64,000 bases of DNA from Oscillospiraceae bacterium (lineage in GTDB: Bacteria > Bacillota > Clostridia > Oscillospirales > Oscillospiraceae), in contig JAETSB010000007.1 of the NCBI GenBank assembly GCA_021769865.1, forward strand, positions 1 to 64,000, written 5' to 3'. Below, one piece after another: positions 10,188 through 20,218 of the stretch. A program made the translations under genes and the position numbers. The notes beneath the pieces were generated by a model. The model did not search any database. It saw nothing but the letters and a program-made list of their open reading frames with translations, and was not told where the DNA came from. Within the stretch, counting starts at the first letter, position 1. Each line of letters opens with the position of its first letter.

Positions 10188-10212
10188 TCCCCATACAATG
10201 GGGGAAAACGGA

Positions 10213-10246
10213 AGCGGCGCCCGCTTATAGCGGGCGCCGCTGTTCT
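10213..10246. terminator. Terminator between iolG and groEL
   Basis: Arms AGCGGCGCCCGC / GCGGGCGCCGCT around TTATA, followed by GTTCTT, between two converging genes. Confidence 0.8.
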
Positions 10247-10274
10247 TATCTTGCGTTTCTTGTGCTTTGACGGC

Positions 10275-11906
<1,632 letters not shown>

Positions 11907-11938
11907 TTACCTCCCGATGTTTTGAAATCAAAATTTGC

Positions 11939-12223
11939 TTAGTCGACAATGGCCAAGATGTCGTTCTGCCGGACGACGACATACTCGACTTCCTCCAGGG
12001 TGACCTTGGTGCCGGCGTACTGGCTGGTAATCACCTTGTCGCCGGGCTTCACGGTCATGGTGACTTCCTTGCCGTCCACGGTGCCGCCGGGGCCCACGGA
12101 GATGACTTCCGCCACGGAGGGCTTTTCCTTGGCGCTGCCGGTGAGGATGATGCCGCCCTTGGTGGTCTCCTCGGTTTCCACCATCTTCAGAATGACGCGG
12201 TCTGCAAGCGGGGTGAGTTTCAT
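11939..12223 (-). CDS. groES: Co-chaperonin GroES
   Basis: The 94-residue lid of the GroEL chamber. It starts MKLTPLADRVILKMVETEETTKGG, the canonical N-terminus. The mobile loop (about residues 17-33, TTKGGIILTGSAKEKP) has the usual II(L) tripeptide that contacts GroEL. AAGGAGG precedes the ATG. It is the first gene of the operon, with promoter and CIRCE element directly upstream. Confidence 0.98.
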   Translation of the reverse strand: MKLTPLADRVILKMVETEETTKGGIILTGSAKEKPSVAEVISVGPGGTVDGKEVTMTVKPGDKVITSQYAGTKVTLEEVEYVVVRQNDILAIVD

Positions 12224-12263
12224 AATGGGTTCCTCCTTAAAATATAAAAATTTGAAAAAACGT

Positions 12264-12306
12264 AATCACTGTTAGCACTCAAATACCAGGAGTGCTAACA
12301 GTGATT
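12264..12306 (-). promoter_or_regulatory. CIRCE operator (HrcA site), extended
   Basis: The core 12272-12298 is a perfect consensus CIRCE: TTAGCACTC, 9 bases, GAGTGCTAA. The symmetry continues outward, so the full arms are 17 bases each (12264-12280 and 12290-12306). CIRCE binds the heat-shock repressor HrcA. It lies between the promoter and groES. Confidence 0.97.
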
Positions 12307-12335
12307 ATCATAGTACAGCCGCCCCCATTTGTAAA
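12307..12335 (-). promoter_or_regulatory. groES-groEL promoter
   Basis: On the minus strand: TTTACA (12335-12330), a 17-base spacer, TATGAT (12312-12307), directly upstream of CIRCE. Sigma-A type. Confidence 0.88.
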
Positions 12336-12359
12336 GGGGGATTTCGCCAAAAGTTATGA

Positions 12360-12372
12360 AGAATTTGTAAAT
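12360..12372 (+). other. Putative attL core
   Basis: AGAATTTGTAAAT, repeated exactly at 20273-20285. It lies 25 bases beyond the groE -35 box, at the transition from host to island sequence. Confidence 0.6.
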
Positions 12373-12460
12373 TCAAGATTGTTGTCCCAGGGATTCCGAA
12401 ATATGGAGCAATTGCGGTGCAAAGGCTTTTGTATTCACTCGGTTTGTGCAGAAATTTGAA

Positions 12461-12500
12461 ATGAAACCGCTAAAGGGAAAAAATAAGGGAAAATATCTTC
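12461..12500 (+). repeat. Arm-type repeat inside the left end
   Basis: ATGAAACCG-CTAAAGGGAAAA followed by TAAGGGAAAAT and ATC. This closely matches 20180-20218 in the same orientation. Each copy holds two AAGGGAAAA units. In a circular form the two copies would flank the core, as arm-type integrase sites do. Confidence 0.5.
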
Positions 12501-12551
12501 GGCAGAATTTTTCCACAGCGGACCGCCGCTTTCTTCCTGGACCGGAGGCCT

Positions 12552-12606
12552 GCCGCCATTGCCCAGGGCCTCCGGGAGGCTGCCAGGACGGGCACGGTGC
12601 ACCGCC
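12552..12606 (+). repeat. GC-rich module, third copy
   Basis: A ~55-base segment starting GCCGCCATTGCCCAGGGCCT that matches the inner part of both long inverted repeats (12857-12909, and 14144-14200 in reverse). This copy is outside the recombinase unit. Confidence 0.6.
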
Positions 12607-12610
12607 CTGG

Positions 12611-12635
12611 TTATGTGTCCAAGTTGGACACATAA
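12611..12635. promoter_or_regulatory. Perfect 25-base palindrome, operator candidate (site A)
   Basis: Arms TTATGTGTCCAA and TTGGACACATAA around one G. The same core occurs at 15561-15579 and 17156-17174, each at the start of a minus-strand transcription unit of the island. Likely binding site for an element-encoded regulator or recombinase; the protein is unknown. Confidence 0.6.
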
Positions 12636-12651
12636 AGGAACTGTCATTTCA

Positions 12652-12909
12652 GGAGGCCCCCAGTTTACCCCGACCCGGGGCCCGGTCGTTGAAAGCCTCT
12701 TCTTCCACAATACCATTATAGCAAAGCATTAACCCTAAGTCTAGTGTTAATATATCCAAACTTTCACCCTAAAGTTTGGATTATTGTACAAAAATGCCGA
12801 AATAAGCATTTGTGCAAGGCTACAAAGAGGGCTGTCCAGGAAGACCGGGCGGCCCGCCGCCATTTCCCAAGCCCCGGGAGGCCGCCAGGACGGGCCCGGT
12901 TCGCCGCCG
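12652..12909 (+). repeat. Left long inverted repeat of the recombinase unit
   Basis: About 258 bases that match the reverse complement of 14144-14406, nearly identical by eye. It contains an outward-facing TATAAT-type promoter (near 12716-12721, minus strand), a CCAAACTTT/AAAGTTTGG inverted repeat (12756-12779), and a GC-rich inner module. Confidence 0.9.
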
Positions 12910-13260
12910 AGAGTGCTGCCGTCTTCTTCAGCGCAGGGCCGGGGGCCTCCAGCAGGGCCAGGGACGCCCCTCCGGGGCGCTGACGCCGCCGGGAGAGGCC
13001 AGGGTACTCGGGGGAGCTCCCCGCCTCCGGTGCGTCCTGGAGGCCACCAGAGGCCGCCTCGCCGATCCGGCCCGCAAGGCTCCCGGAGCTGGGTCCGGCG
13101 CTCCGCCGGGAGTGCTACCGCCTCCTCCAGCACGGGGGCCAGGCTTCCAGCGGGGCTAGGACTGGCCCGCCGGTCAGCTGACGCCGCCGGAAGGACCCAG
13201 GGCCACCCGGGGGAATCTCCCCGCTTCCGGCGCGTCCTGGAGGCCGCCACGGGCTGCCGT
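12905..13260 (+). repeat. Diverged GC-rich tandem repeat
   Basis: Two related ~155-base units (about 12905-13060 and 13102-13258). Both run from GCCG-GAGTGCT through a GCTGACGCCGCCGG segment to GCGTCCTGGAGGCC. Several open frames cross them but none has a ribosome-binding site or a recognisable product, so I treat the stretch as non-coding repeat DNA. Confidence 0.6.
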
Positions 13261-13348
13261 GGTCCGCTGACCGGCGCCGCAGCTTTTGTCCAGGGCATGG
13301 AGACTGTCGCCAGAGCCCCAAAGCGTTTCAATAGGGTATCAAAACTTA

Positions 13349-13428
13349 TGACACGTTGCATAAATGGCAAAACCAACTTATATGACACGCTTTTTTGACG
13401 TGTCATTAGACTATGACCTATTGACACG
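13349..13428 (+). promoter_or_regulatory. Putative res site of the serine recombinase
   Basis: Four TGACACG half-sites: 13349-13355 (+), 13383-13389 (+), 13399-13405 (-) and 13422-13428 (+). The middle pair forms an inverted repeat around nine bases. The last half-site overlaps the recombinase -35 box. Clustered dimer sites upstream of the gene are how resolvases bind and autoregulate. Confidence 0.6.
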
Positions 13429-13449
13429 TCCCACAAGGTATGCTATACT
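13421..13449 (+). promoter_or_regulatory. Serine recombinase promoter
   Basis: TTGACA (13421-13426), 17-base spacer, TATACT (13444-13449). Confidence 0.8.
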
Positions 13450-13496
13450 TCCAAATAGGGTAGATGCACACTGTTACGCAGAAAGGAATTGTTTTT

Positions 13497-14057
13497 ATGG
13501 AAGTCGGCTATATTCGCGTCAGCACGGAAGATCAGAACACGGCCCGCCAGTTCGCTTTAATGGACGCCCGTGGAATCAAGAAGATTTTTTCGGAGAAGGA
13601 GAGCGGGAAGAACGCGGAGCGGGAACAGCTCAAGGCCATGCTTGCTTATGTTCGAGAGGGTGACACGGTTGTCACGGAGAGTATTTCACGTATTGCCAGG
13701 AATACACGGGACCTGCTTTCCATCGTCGAAAAGCTCACGGACAAGGGCGTCGAGTTCGTCAGCCTGAAGGAGAGCATCGACACCACCACGCCGCAGGGCC
13801 GTTTTATGCTGACGGTTTTCGGGGCCATGGCGGAGCTGGACCGGGAAACCATTTTGCAACGGCAAAAGGAGGGGATCGCAATAGCTAAGGCGGAAGGGAA
13901 ATACCAGGGGCGAAAGCCAATTGAAATTAACCAGGAAGATTTTAAAGCCATCTGCAAGAGCTGGCGGGCCGGAGAGATTACAGGCGTCGAGGCAGCGAAC
14001 CGGGCCGGGCTGAAGAAGAACACCTTTTATCGCAGGGTCAAGGCGTTGGGGCTGTAA
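13497..14057 (+). CDS. Serine recombinase (resolvase/invertase family)
   Basis: Site-specific recombinase of 186 residues that cuts DNA through a 5'-phosphoserine link. The catalytic N-terminus GYIRVST has Arg7 and the nucleophile Ser9. A segment near residues 53-65 (VTESISRIARNTR) and DTTTPQGRFMLTVFGAMAELDRE fit the resolvase/invertase core and dimer helix E. The last ~45 residues form a compact helix-turn-helix (GVEAANRAGLKKNTFYRRVKAL). The size is that of Tn3-type resolvases and Hin/Gin invertases, not large serine integrases. AAAGGA lies 9 bases before ATG 13497. The gene is alone between ~260-base inverted repeats, with TGACACG half-sites in its promoter. Confidence 0.93.
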   Translation: MEVGYIRVSTEDQNTARQFALMDARGIKKIFSEKESGKNAEREQLKAMLAYVREGDTVVTESISRIARNTRDLLSIVEKLTDKGVEFVSLKESIDTTTPQGRFMLTVFGAMAELDRETILQRQKEGIAIAKAEGKYQGRKPIEINQEDFKAICKSWRAGEITGVEAANRAGLKKNTFYRRVKALGL

Positions 14058-14143
14058 GCGCTGCCCCGGCAAAACTGAACACAGACGGAAACGGGCTGGA
14101 AGCAAAACGCTTCAGCCCGTTTCCTTTTGCGCCTCCAGAGAAG

Positions 14144-14406
14144 CGGCGGCGAACCGGGCCCGCCCTGGCGGCCTCCGGGGGCCCTGGACAATGGAGGCGG
14201 GCCGCCCGGTTTTCCCTGGCCGGTTCCTTTTTGTAGCCTTGCACAAATACTAAATTCCGGCATTTTTGTACAATAATCCAAACTTTAGGGTGAAAGTTTG
14301 GATATATTAACACTAGATTTAGGGTTAATGCTTTGCTATAATGGTATCATGGAAGAAGAGACTTTCAACACCCGGGCCCCGAGTCGGGGTAAACTGGGAG
14401 CCTCCC
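14144..14406 (-). repeat. Right long inverted repeat of the recombinase unit
   Basis: Reverse-complement partner of 12652-12909. It contains the CCAAACTTT/AAAGTTTGG inverted repeat (14278-14301) and the TATAAT at 14337-14342 that points right toward the regulator at 14439. The match begins abruptly at GGGAGGCTCCC and ends at CGGCGGCGAACC. Confidence 0.9.
14337..14342 (+). promoter_or_regulatory. Outward -10 box in the right repeat
   Basis: TATAAT; the hexamer 17 bases upstream (TAGATT, 14314-14319) is a poor -35. An imperfect TTAAC...GTTAA repeat overlaps the -35 region. It probably drives the small regulator at 14439. Confidence 0.5.
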
Positions 14407-14438
14407 GGTTTCCGGGAAGCCTGGAAAGGTGGTGAAAT

Positions 14439-14654
14439 ATGCCGATTATCTATAACAAGCTCTTTGCCCTCTTGGCGGAAAGGGGTTTGAACGCCTACAC
14501 CCTGCAAAAAGAAAAAATTGTAGGCAACGCAACTATTGAAAAACTGCAAAAGAACCAGGGAAACATTGACACACGGTCGATTGTCAGGCTATGTAAATAC
14601 CTCCAGTGTCAGCCCGGCGATATCATGGAGTATGTCGAGGATGAAGCGGAATAA
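14439..14654 (+). CDS. Small XRE/Cro-type DNA-binding protein
   Basis: A 71-residue single-domain helix-turn-helix protein (IIYNKLFALLAERGLNAYTL, then IDTRSIVRLCKYLQCQPGDI), matching the compact YozG/HTH_26-type Cro family common in Firmicutes mobile elements. AAAGGTGG lies before the ATG. It sits 33 bases outside the right inverted repeat and is read from the promoter within it, so its expression may depend on that repeat. The target is unknown; the repeat's own palindromes are candidates. Confidence 0.82.
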   Translation: MPIIYNKLFALLAERGLNAYTLQKEKIVGNATIEKLQKNQGNIDTRSIVRLCKYLQCQPGDIMEYVEDEAE

Positions 14655-14734: not shown

Positions 14735-15142
14735 TTATTTTTCCCACGGTACCGACAGGCCCAGCAGGGCGCACAATCGTTGAAAATCTTCCGGGGCCAT
14801 CGTCTCCAATGACTCCCGAAATTCTGCCGACGCGTAGTCGTCCAAGGAAAAGGGCGCGTTTTCTGACTCCATATCTTCCGTAAGCATGGAGCGGTATTCC
14901 TCCGCGCCCCGGAGCACGCCCAGGAAATAGAAGCTCCGCATATGGAACAGGGCGCGGGCCTGTCCGGTCGTCAGCTTCGCCGCCTGGACCGCCGACGCCA
15001 CGGCTACCTCTTCCGCCGCCATCCAAAAACCGCATCCGTCCCCGTCCTCCAGGAAGCCGACCGGCTCCCCTTCGGAGAATGGAGTTGTGTCCGTAAGATT
15101 CCGTATAGCCTCATTGCTCAAAATGTACTCGTTCGCTTCCAT
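14735..15142 (-). CDS. Hypothetical island protein, paralogue of its neighbour
   Basis: A 135-residue acidic protein with no signal peptide or membrane segment. I do not recognise the family. It shares a core (QARALFHMRSFYFLGVLRGAEE, residues ~61-82) with the gene directly upstream (RARALFLMRGFYLLGVLRGGEA), so the two arose by duplication. ACGGAGG lies 8 bases before the ATG. It is the second gene of a two-gene minus-strand operon, with a 15-base gap. The role is unknown; small paired proteins like these in mobile elements are often accessory or anti-host factors, but nothing here proves it. Confidence 0.72.
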   Translation of the reverse strand: MEANEYILSNEAIRNLTDTTPFSEGEPVGFLEDGDGCGFWMAAEEVAVASAVQAAKLTTGQARALFHMRSFYFLGVLRGAEEYRSMLTEDMESENAPFSLDDYASAEFRESLETMAPEDFQRLCALLGLSVPWEK

Positions 15143-15157
15143 GAAAACCTCCGTTTC

Positions 15158-15541
15158 TTAGAGCCCGATTGCTTTGCAGTTCGCTTCCAGCTGGAAGGAG
15201 GACAGCCCGGACAGCTCCTCCAGGAACAGCAGGGCGCACGCCCTGGAGAGGACGAACCGCCCCTCTTCCGCCTTCTCATCCAGCAGGACGGCCCGCGCCG
15301 CCTCTCCTCCCCGGAGCACGCCCAGCAGATAGAAACCCCGCATCAGGAACAGGGCGCGGGCCCGCTGGTCCTTGGTTTTGCTCAGGCATATCCCCGCATC
15401 CTTTACCGCCGCCGTTAACCCCCGGGCCTCCGACATGAAGTCGACGAATCCACTTTCTTCCGAAAGCGGCGTACCCTCCGCCAAGTCCGCCAGGTCCATC
15501 CCCAGGAAATAGGGGAGTGTGCTTTTCGCTATGCCGTCCAC
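15158..15541 (-). CDS. Hypothetical island protein, first of a paralogous pair
   Basis: A 127-residue protein. I use GTG 15541 because AAAGGAGG lies 6 bases upstream; an in-frame ATG at 15580 would put the start inside the palindromic site at 15561-15579 and has no ribosome-binding site. The core ARALFLMRGFYLLGVLRGGE is shared with 14735-15142. The C-terminus (LFLEELSGLSSFQLEANCKA) differs from the paralogue. Family not recognised. The palindrome immediately upstream suggests the pair is regulated by whatever binds the repeated TGTGTCCAA motif. Confidence 0.7.
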   Translation of the reverse strand: MDGIAKSTLPYFLGMDLADLAEGTPLSEESGFVDFMSEARGLTAAVKDAGICLSKTKDQRARALFLMRGFYLLGVLRGGEAARAVLLDEKAEEGRFVLSRACALLFLEELSGLSSFQLEANCKAIGL

Positions 15542-15560
15542 AACGGCCCTCCTTTCCGCA

Positions 15561-15579
15561 TGTGTCCAACATGGACACA
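15561..15579. promoter_or_regulatory. Palindromic operator candidate (site B)
   Basis: TGTGTCCAA-C-ATGGACACA: one mismatch to the perfect core seen at 12611-12635. It lies 19 bases upstream of the GTG start of the paralogous pair. Confidence 0.6.
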
Positions 15580-15631
15580 ATTTGTTTCCCGTCCAAATCC
15601 GTCTACGTATTCGAATTTGAAAAGCTCACTG

Positions 15632-16017: not shown

Positions 16018-16040
16018 TCTCCAAGCATTGCTTGGCAATG

Positions 16041-16120
16041 CGGACGCATGCTGGCGCATCCCAGCGCATGCCGACGCATGCCAGCGCATACGGACGCATG
16101 CTAACGCATACCCACGCATA
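16041..16120 (+). repeat. Iteron array, eight units of exactly 10 bases
   Basis: Eight consecutive decamers of the form CNN(A/G)CGCAT(G/A/C), with no change in spacing. Three further CGCAT/CGTAT units with a 10-base step follow at 16171-16200. A period of ~10 bases places every motif on the same face of the helix, as in replication-initiator or partition-protein binding sites. The 15863-16196 stretch has no credible gene apart from these arrays. Confidence 0.8.
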
Positions 16121-16196
16121 GCGGATATCCCATCGGATACGGGCAACTGCCGCCGCACAGCGGGATACACAGCGTATGCCAGCGCATGCGGGCGCA

Positions 16197-16475
16197 TCAG
16201 CCCTTTTCCCCCTTCTTCTCCCAGCGGGCGCTTGCCGCCTTGGCGGCCTTCTCGCATTTCTTCCGGTAGGTCTCCGCGTCCCGGTCAACCATCTGCTGGA
16301 AGAAGGGCCACACGGGAGACAGGCGGGCGCTGAGCTCCGGTTTCACGTCATATTCGGCATAATCGAAAACCGCCGCCAGAATCTGCCCCCGCTCTTCGTC
16401 GCTCATCAGGGCCAGCAGGGGACGTGTTTCTGCAAAGTACAGCATCACTCCCGGCGGGCGCTTCTCCGTGCTCAC
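16197..16475 (-). CDS. DUF6291-like phage/element protein
   Basis: A 92-residue protein with the segment MLYFAETRPLLALMSDEERG and VWPFFQQMVDRDAETYRKKC. This is the pattern of small phage-type proteins (DUF6291-like) often found beside replication genes. The C-terminus is strongly basic (KKCEKAAKAASARWEKKGEKG). The GTG start at 16475 overlaps the TGA of the upstream gene (GTGA), which favours translational coupling. It is last in the three-gene operon from 17139. The gene ends where the CGCAT units begin. The family name is from memory and no function is established. Confidence 0.62.
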   Translation of the reverse strand: MSTEKRPPGVMLYFAETRPLLALMSDEERGQILAAVFDYAEYDVKPELSARLSPVWPFFQQMVDRDAETYRKKCEKAAKAASARWEKKGEKG

Positions 16476-17155: not shown

Positions 17156-17174
17156 CGTGTCCAAGTTAGACACA
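17156..17174. promoter_or_regulatory. Palindromic operator candidate (site C)
   Basis: GTGTCCAA-G-TTAGACAC: one mismatched pair within the arms. Third copy of the motif at 12611 and 15561, 17 bases before the 17139 start. Confidence 0.55.
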
Positions 17175-18739: not shown

Positions 18740-18741
18740 GC

Positions 18742-18874
18742 AAATCCGCAAGCGCTTGCGGATTTCATGCGACAGCGCTGTCGCACCAAATCCGACACCG
18801 CGGACGTTTTTCAAATCCGTCAGCGCTGACGAATTTAGGCAGTAACCGCAAATCCGCAACCGGTTGCGGATTTG
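18742..18874. repeat. Array of five palindromes (AAATCCG motif)
   Basis: Perfect palindromes at 18742-18765 (half AAATCCGCAAGC), 18768-18785 (half TGCGACAGC) and 18849-18874 (half CAAATCCGCAACC). A near-perfect one is at 18813-18836 (half AAATCCGTCAGC) and a degenerate AAATCCG unit at 18788-18811. They fill most of the gap between the kinase and integrase genes. No loops or T-runs, so they look like protein-binding sites or cruciform DNA, not terminators. Confidence 0.85.
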
Positions 18875-19024: not shown

Positions 19025-20191
19025 ATGGCAAAAAAGGGAGCCAAAGGCGGCGGGACTATCCGAAAAAAGACCGTCACGCGAAACGGGAAGGAATACACCT
19101 ATTGGGAAGCCCGTATTACCACGGGCCGGGACCCCGGCACGGGGAAGCAGGTCCAGCGATCTTTCACCGGCAAGACACAGAAAGAGGTCCGGGAGAAGCT
19201 GCAGGCCGCCGCCGTGGCCGTCAATGGCGGGACCTATGCGGATCTGTCCCGGCTCACCGTGGGGCAATGGCTGGATATCTGGACGCGGGATTATCTGGGC
19301 AATGTAAAGCCCACAACAGCCAATGCTTACAAAAGCTATATCAAGAACCATATCCGCCCTTCCCTGGGGGCCGTCCGCTTGACAGATCTGCACCCGCATA
19401 CCGTTCAGAATTTTATAAACGGCCTGGGCGGCCTTGCGCCTTCTTCGGTTCACGTCCTGTACCGGGTCCTGCATATCGCCATGGGAAAGGCCGTGGACCT
19501 GAATTACATACCAAGGAATCCAGCCGCCCGCTGCGTGCTTCCAAAAGCGGAGCGAAAAGAGATCCATCCGCTCACCGACGAACAGGCCGCCGCGCTGATC
19601 CGGGCCGCTGGCGGCACGCGGATAGAGCATCTTGTGACACTGGCCCTGTTTACCGGCTTCCGCCTCTCTGAGCTCCTGGGCCTCACCTGGGACGCCGTGA
19701 ACTTCGACAGGGGAACAATTGCGGTAGACAAGCAGCTCTCCGCCGACTTTACCAGGGGGCCGCTGTTCTCAACGCCAAAGAGCGGGAAGCCCCGGATTGT
19801 CATGCCCGCCGCCTCCGCCTTCCAGGTGCTGCGCAAGCAGAAGACGAAACAGGCAGAACAGCGGTTGAAGGCGGGGCCGCTCTGGGACAACCCCTGCGGC
19901 CTGATCTTCACTGATGAAGACGGCGGGCCGATGTCCCAGCAAACCGCAGAAAAAGAATTTTCCTCCATTCGGGCCGCCGTCGGGCTTGACGCCTTCCGCT
20001 TTCATGATCTCCGGCACACCTTCGCCGTGAACTCCATCCGGGCCGGGGACGATATCAAGACCATACAGGGCAACCTGGGCCACGCAACCGCCGCCTTTAC
20101 GCTGGATGTCTACGGGCACGTTACGGAGACCATGAAGCAGGACAGCGCCGCCAGGATGGAAACGTTTATTAAGGGCGTTATGAAACTGTAA
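19025..20191 (+). CDS. int: Tyrosine integrase of the island
   Basis: A 388-residue site-specific recombinase. The N-terminal ~60 residues (TIRKKTVTRNGKEYTYWEAR) form the arm-DNA-binding domain, ~77-170 is the SAM-like core-binding domain, and the C-terminal half is catalytic. Catalytic residues are Arg213 (TGFRLSE), a Lys near 252, His327 and Arg330 (HDLRH), His353 (LGHA) and the nucleophile Tyr363 (DVYGHV). All are present, so it should be active. It sits ~80 bases from the right junction, as integrases usually do. The stop codon overlaps the arm-type repeat at 20180-20218. A hairpin may limit its translation. Confidence 0.95.
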   Translation: MAKKGAKGGGTIRKKTVTRNGKEYTYWEARITTGRDPGTGKQVQRSFTGKTQKEVREKLQAAAVAVNGGTYADLSRLTVGQWLDIWTRDYLGNVKPTTANAYKSYIKNHIRPSLGAVRLTDLHPHTVQNFINGLGGLAPSSVHVLYRVLHIAMGKAVDLNYIPRNPAARCVLPKAERKEIHPLTDEQAAALIRAAGGTRIEHLVTLALFTGFRLSELLGLTWDAVNFDRGTIAVDKQLSADFTRGPLFSTPKSGKPRIVMPAASAFQVLRKQKTKQAEQRLKAGPLWDNPCGLIFTDEDGGPMSQQTAEKEFSSIRAAVGLDAFRFHDLRHTFAVNSIRAGDDIKTIQGNLGHATAAFTLDVYGHVTETMKQDSAARMETFIKGVMKL

Positions 20192-20218
20192 AGGGAAAAT
20201 GTAAGGGAAAATTATATC
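20180..20218 (+). repeat. Arm-type repeat inside the right end
   Basis: Matches 12461-12500: ATGAAAC-TG-TAAAGGGAAAA, then TAAGGGAAAAT and ATC. It includes the last codons and stop of the integrase gene. Confidence 0.5.

Follow-up and report, generated by a model that had tools for sequence, protein, structure and literature searches.

A putative resolvase module framed by long inverted promoter repeats within an integrative element of an Oscillospiraceae bacterium

Small serine resolvase systems such as those of Tn3/gamma-delta and Sin have a single res that lies upstream of, and overlaps, the resolvase promoter and is made up of site I and an accessory region. To our knowledge, none of these systems is framed by long inverted repeats that carry promoters. 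In Mpi-type systems, a promoter located between short repeats is turned by an invertase. Long inverted repeats around a resolvase gene have been described for TIME-COMP1, in which inverted 262-bp TIMEs with 38-bp Tn3-type terminal repeats flank a gene for a 187-aa TnpR-type resolvase; this composite is non-autonomous, made 5-bp target duplications and holds a second gene assigned to DUF1652 (Szuplewska et al. 2014, PMC4133298). The same paper records target duplications for only four of the TIMEs found in databases, and a second report describes IMU-bounded TIME-COMPs that have none (PMC13367494). TIME-RES, which was termed a portable recombination system, encodes a 309-aa resolvase and has 40-bp terminal repeats similar to TIME ends (PMC4133298). 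Portable resolvase modules with Tn3-type ends are already known; what differs at the locus described here is a frame of long promoter/operator repeats. The literature searched, which lay largely outside subscription journals, showed no resolvase module set between long repeats with promoters.

The window, that is, the whole stretch of DNA analysed, comprises the first 64,000 nucleotides of contig JAETSB010000007.1 (assembly GCA_021769865.1), and the features considered are collected in Table 1. The unit delimited by the two arms of the inverted repeat lies inside a ~7.7-kb integrative element beside groESL, for which both a tyrosine integrase and flanking att-like repeats were found. The genes to the left of the element we take, from their translations, to be groES and groEL. 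The att-like repeats have counterparts in a genome of the same genus (G381), where they lie on two contigs, and in G409, where a related element with partly different genes (L158) occupies the same site and the flank corresponding to 10211-12386 is 93% identical. The preliminary description of this DNA had presented a serine recombinase gene between near-identical inverted repeats with outward promoters, and had offered two readings, an invertible switch and a composite module that moves by its recombinase; the surrounding element, the res-like site, the third partial copy of the arm and the GC-rich tandem repeats go beyond that account.

Table 1. Features of the unit and of the element around it (positions in the window; a point marks features given no strand).
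Feature	Position	Strand	Basis or remark
attL-like direct repeat	12461..12494	+	34 bases
Third, partial copy of the arm's GC-rich half	12544..12606	.	sequence repeats
Palindrome TGTGTCCAAGTTGGACACA at the unit's left edge	12614..12632	.	3 sites in the genome (at most 2 mismatches), each of them in the element
Left arm of long inverted repeat	12652..12909	-	promoter points left
Left outward promoter, TAGACT-17-TATAAT with TG	12715..12743	-	promoter scan
28-bp dyad ATCCAAACTTT-N6-AAAGTTTGGAT, same as in right arm	12754..12781	.	left arm
Two GC-rich tandem repeats, ~200-base period, inside the unit	12944..13258	.	pieces recur at left end of the G381 sibling element
res accessory region, three other half-sites that differ from CGTGTCAWWAG at 0, 1 and 2 positions	13324..13389	.	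half-site scan
res-like site I, GACGTGTCATTAGACTATGACCTATTGACACGTC, 34-bp imperfect palindrome	13397..13430	.	half-sites, palindrome listing, relatives' motif
Recombinase promoter TTGACA-17-TATACT, overlaps res site I	13421..13449	+	promoter scan; putatively autoregulated
Small serine recombinase, resolvase type, 186 aa, PF00239	13497..14057	+	profile match
Inverted repeat 3' of recombinase gene, terminator-like stem	14082..14129	+	repeat listing
Right arm of long inverted repeat	14144..14406	+	promoter points right
Right promoter/operator core	14258..14347	+	sole mismatch to left copy at 14318; extended -10 TGCTATAAT at 14334-14342
28-bp dyad ATCCAAACTTT-N6-AAAGTTTGGAT, probable operator	14276..14303	.	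right arm
Cro/C1-type regulator HTH_26 (PF13443), 71 aa	14439..14654	+	profile match
Tyrosine integrase of the element, PF00589	19025..20191	+	profile match
attR-like direct repeat	20180..20212	+	33 bases

The assignment of the gene between the arms to the serine recombinases was borne out by a match to PF00239 that covers the full length of the domain (profile positions 2-145 of 145, 147 bits). When the protein was compared with PDB chains, gamma-delta resolvase scored 88 bits, aligned over 4-180 of 187; the top two matches were DNA-invertase chains, presumably those of Gin, which scored 115 and 113 bits over residues 3-145 only, the catalytic part. Given this order of matches, the sequence would still allow an invertase activity. 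The match of the recombinase to NCBIfam NF009949 (Mpi-type invertase) reached 65 bits against a cut-off of 272.

Upstream of the recombinase gene lies a res-like region that as a whole spans 13324-13430. With a half-site consensus, CGTGTCAWWAG, derived from the window itself, half-sites with at most one mismatch were found only at 13324, 13345, 13399 and 13418, and one with two mismatches at 13379; the scan of both arms gave none with fewer than three mismatches. Two of these half-sites make up the 34-bp palindrome of site I. A site-I motif, TAGGGTATACCCTA, was found with up to three mismatches within 260 bp upstream of the gene in 25 of 40 relatives, as compared with 0.48 expected from shuffles, and was absent there in the remaining 15. 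This count is partly post hoc, in that the motif was first noticed in the relatives' own loci, and it includes some near-duplicates (for example L024/L025/L026 and L198/L199); of the 42 loci considered, two whose contigs stop at the gene were left out. Within the unit, the sequence closest to the motif is the res palindrome itself, which departs from it at 4 of 14 positions and would fail the three-mismatch test, and we therefore regard site I of the window as a divergent version of the motif of the relatives. Judged by sequence, the gene and its upstream sites have the layout of a resolvase with its res, including conservation in relatives. As in Tn3/gamma-delta and Sin, the res of the unit, with site I and an accessory region, lies upstream of the gene and overlaps the recombinase promoter. 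The stem that follows the recombinase gene is absent from the listing of the terminator scan, in which the loop limit was 8.

The enzyme has many relatives. Some match was found in 66 of the 86 genomes of the same genus, with a best identity of 65% outside the genome of the window, and in a family sample of 400 genomes identity reached at most 67% across the whole protein and 72% across residues 32-187. Related proteins, all below 60% identity, are encoded in at least 5000 plasmid records, and among the best 120 of 8000 matches listed for public assemblies there were 10 full-length recombinase clusters of at least 80% identity, whose longest contigs measure 1.1-8.2 kb. The study of loci drew on 13 and 10 stretches from genus and family relatives, respectively, with L041-L055 and L089-L092 (lower identity) and short loci set aside. 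Inverted repeats that bracket the gene were found at one of the 47 relatives' loci, and none were homologous to the arms; these 47 are part of the relatives found and in many cases lie on short contigs, including two that stop at the gene. The exception, a 257-base inverted pair around the related resolvase of L198, was considered as a second case and rejected, as it is a duplicated coding sequence, which to us looks like rubrerythrin, unrelated to the arms. The long repeats are apparently not part of the enzyme's own system, and the proposal that the module moves by its recombinase is unlikely, given that none of the 47 loci has homologous repeats. Nor does the regulator regularly accompany the enzyme: of 31 relatives' loci, one had an HTH_26 match (E up to 1e-3).

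The arms themselves, 258-263 bp long and inverted, share 90% identity across 262 alignment columns (E 6e-95), far more than chance would give. The inverted repeats are thus real, but the near-identity ascribed to them holds only in the core. Mismatches are unevenly distributed, with 1 in the 87 columns of 14260-14346 versus 26 in the 176 elsewhere (86/87 against 150/176 identical columns; Fisher p 3e-4, limits chosen post hoc), and the run of 90 columns with at most one mismatch that forms the core in Table 1 is the longest between the arms (permutation p 0.003). This core holds the dyad and the extended -10 and ends at the transcription start predicted from the -10 (~14349). An outward -10 box and a common dyad had been reported for each repeat, and both were located in both arms: the outward TGCTATAAT of the left arm scored 10/12 in the promoter scan, and that of the right arm was read from the sequence, being missing from the scan because its -35 is too weak for it. 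The same scan gave a weaker, inward-pointing match (9/12) in each arm. Both arm promoters may have been maintained, or else converted, and gene conversion instead of function could account for the conserved core.

The left promoter points toward groESL, the first start codon of which is ~485 bases away, and no terminator-like site is listed between them on that strand. Folding of the leader RNAs gave a z of -1.6 on the right and of -2.7 on the left, where the leader includes the 19-bp palindrome; an Rfam scan of the window gave nothing at gathering scores. A short open frame begins almost at the predicted start after each outward promoter, at 14349-14435 (+, 28 codons) and 12708-12649 (-, 19 codons). 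The two stand in the same frame in both arms, and most of the differences between them, judged by eye, would change the amino acid.

The regulator gene is found without the unit in G381, where the protein is 90% identical and the DNA is 90% identical over 330 bases; the unit was accordingly inserted or deleted and is present or absent as a whole. In G381, sequence whose alignment to the window begins at position 14400 (GCCKCCCGGTTTCCGGGAAGCC...) starts 9 nt after the 19-bp palindrome, and in the window the palindrome stands on the far side of the unit, which fills the gap to 14400. The regulator of G381 has no such arm promoter, its leader following the palindrome after those 9 nt, and it is plausible, as proposed earlier, that the right repeat drives the regulator in the window. 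Relatives of the HTH_26 protein were found at two loci in viral contigs (61% and 39%), with different upstream DNA (400 bases compared by eye). The preliminary description had also suggested a search for the unit elsewhere and a comparison with empty sites. G381 supplied a copy without the unit, which agrees with a composite module that comes and goes as a block; the edges, however, are ambiguous, and no further copy of the arm was found in the window's own draft genome. Specifically, GCGGGCCGCCCGGTTT of G381 also matches 14197-14212 inside the right arm, GC-rich repeats of G381 match the inside of the unit, and CCCGGTTT(T)CC flanks the AT-rich core of the right arm on both sides (14205-14215 and 14404-14413), so that the breakpoints are ambiguous and more than one event is possible.

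We favor, with a probability of roughly 0.6, the hypothesis that the unit is a portable res and resolvase module, framed by two inverted promoter/operator repeats and lodged in an integrative element, and that it is not an invertible switch. The unit would have been placed between the palindrome at the element's left end and the HTH_26 regulator gene. The resolvase would bind res and thereby repress itself, and the single res might, when two copies of the element come together, serve to resolve their dimers or cointegrates. The right arm would have replaced the earlier upstream region of the regulator and would now supply its promoter; the regulator probably binds the dyads in both arms, and the left arm, with the same promoter, would read toward groESL. 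If the frame is maintained, a DNA-resolution system would be linked to the control of its neighbors. Transcription from the left promoter into groESL would mean that a host chaperone operon had gained a second promoter from a mobile element; should it not reach groESL, the locus would still illustrate neatly how a small integrative element grows as a mosaic.

One alternative, which we consider unlikely but the strongest of those weighed here, is that the frame is an accident of history, in which an inverted duplication of the regulator promoter and a solitary resolvase insertion came about among recombination-prone GC-rich repeats and have no joint function. The third partial arm copy, the tandem repeats that the unit shares with the left end of the G381 element, and the paired CCCGGTTT(T)CC are consistent with such a history. 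So is the search of the family with the whole arm (400 genomes, up to two candidates scored in each), which gave 17 genomes, namely the window's own and 16 of the 399 others, the latter with matches of 21-63 bases in the GC-rich half; the AT-rich promoter half, searched in the same way, gave the own genome and one 29-base match (E 9e-4). What argues against an accident is that the promoter core was kept while its flanks drifted, which plain decay without conversion would not produce.

Another scenario, to which we give rather less credence, is a non-autonomous composite of the TIME-COMP type, in which two inverted miniature elements carry the resolvase and are mobilized in trans by a transposase. 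The arms and the size of the resolvase that they enclose (258-263 bp and ~187 aa) are like those of TIME-COMP1 (PMC4133298), and the unit is present in the window and absent from G381. As in that composite, long inverted repeats surround a resolvase, no transposition gene lies inside, and the whole is non-autonomous; in a comparison by description, the arms here differ in having outward promoters and a common dyad and in showing neither paired ends of ~38 bp nor a duplication. No target-site duplication was seen at the outer edges of the unit, which are uncertain; the longest word shared there is 4, as compared with an average of 4.9 for random pairs. Its absence weighs little, because published TIMEs often have none (PMC4133298, PMC13367494), and it is no bar to this scenario. 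Further results are less favorable to the composite. The ends of the arms are not inverted repeats of each other (60-base ends score 15 against a shuffle mean of 12.9, p 0.19), a comparison of the two ends with each other that rests on the arm edges as delimited. In addition, a search with the arm of the draft genome that contains the window (2.13 Mb, 80.8% complete), in which 40 of 59 first-look candidates were scored, gave two matches only, the two arms. No match to the Tn3 transposase profile PF01526 was found in this draft genome, the control genomes being positive in 2 of 14 cases. With neither paired ends at the arm edges nor a Tn3 transposase detected in the draft, we note a resemblance to a TIME-COMP but do not class the unit as one. 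TIME-RES is alike in being a portable res with a resolvase and differs in its 40-bp terminal repeats and its resolvase of 309 aa. Searches for the arms outside chromosomes gave none in viral contigs (two pattern scans) and, at blastn sensitivity, 9 plasmid and 2 phage records, which covered at most 13% of the query and so all fell short of 80%. Both the composite and the accident concern the origin of the frame, and either can be compatible with the reading as a resolvase with res; because they can hold together with it, our confidences in the separate readings need not sum to one.

A more ambitious version of the favored hypothesis, and a distinctly doubtful one, is that of a promoter-framed mobile cassette, in which a single repressor encoded by the element would govern maintained outward promoters at both inverted ends, and the cassette would thereby subject both neighbors, here the regulator and groESL, to control by the element at any site where it landed. 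Least probable of all is the invertible switch, in which the recombinase (or RecA) would flip the 1.2-kb stretch that the arms enclose. In its favor, the arms are inverted, invertase chains lead the PDB matches, and the dyads are 28-bp near-palindromes with an asymmetric central 6 bp, similar in size to an invertase crossover site; the two dyads and res site I are the only places listed within 12640-14440 where 11 or more of 15 positions pair about an even centre. Against it, no recombinase half-site with fewer than three mismatches was found in the arms, the motif conserved upstream of 25 of 40 relatives was found at res, none of the 47 relatives' loci examined has homologous repeats, and, because the arms are symmetrical, inversion would turn the recombinase gene only and leave both outward promoters as they were. 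The likely target of the enzyme is instead the single res between the arms. The unit is like Mpi-type systems in having a serine recombinase beside inverted repeats and differs in that its promoters lie within the repeats and would not turn.

Several other repeats were noted in the element. The 19-bp palindrome TGTGTCCAANTTGGACACA occurs at 12614-12632, 15561-15579 and 17156-17174, within the searched genome only in this element (up to two mismatches), and sibling elements carry it as well, with five sites in L158 and two in both L156 and L157. In the window, small ORFs begin at two of the three sites, and an operator or a centromere-like site are possible readings. Two adjacent small minus-strand ORFs (14735-15142 and 15158-15580), neither of which has a Pfam or NCBIfam match, have a 99-base direct repeat (73%) in common. 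At 16038-16207 a 32-base pattern recurs seven times, its first six copies being spaced by 10 bases and thus forming a run of 10-base units. Finally, three palindromic repeats like GCAAATCCGCAAGCGCTTGCGGATTT lie at 18740-18873, between a zeta-toxin-like gene and the integrase gene, and were matched in the elements of G381 and G409.
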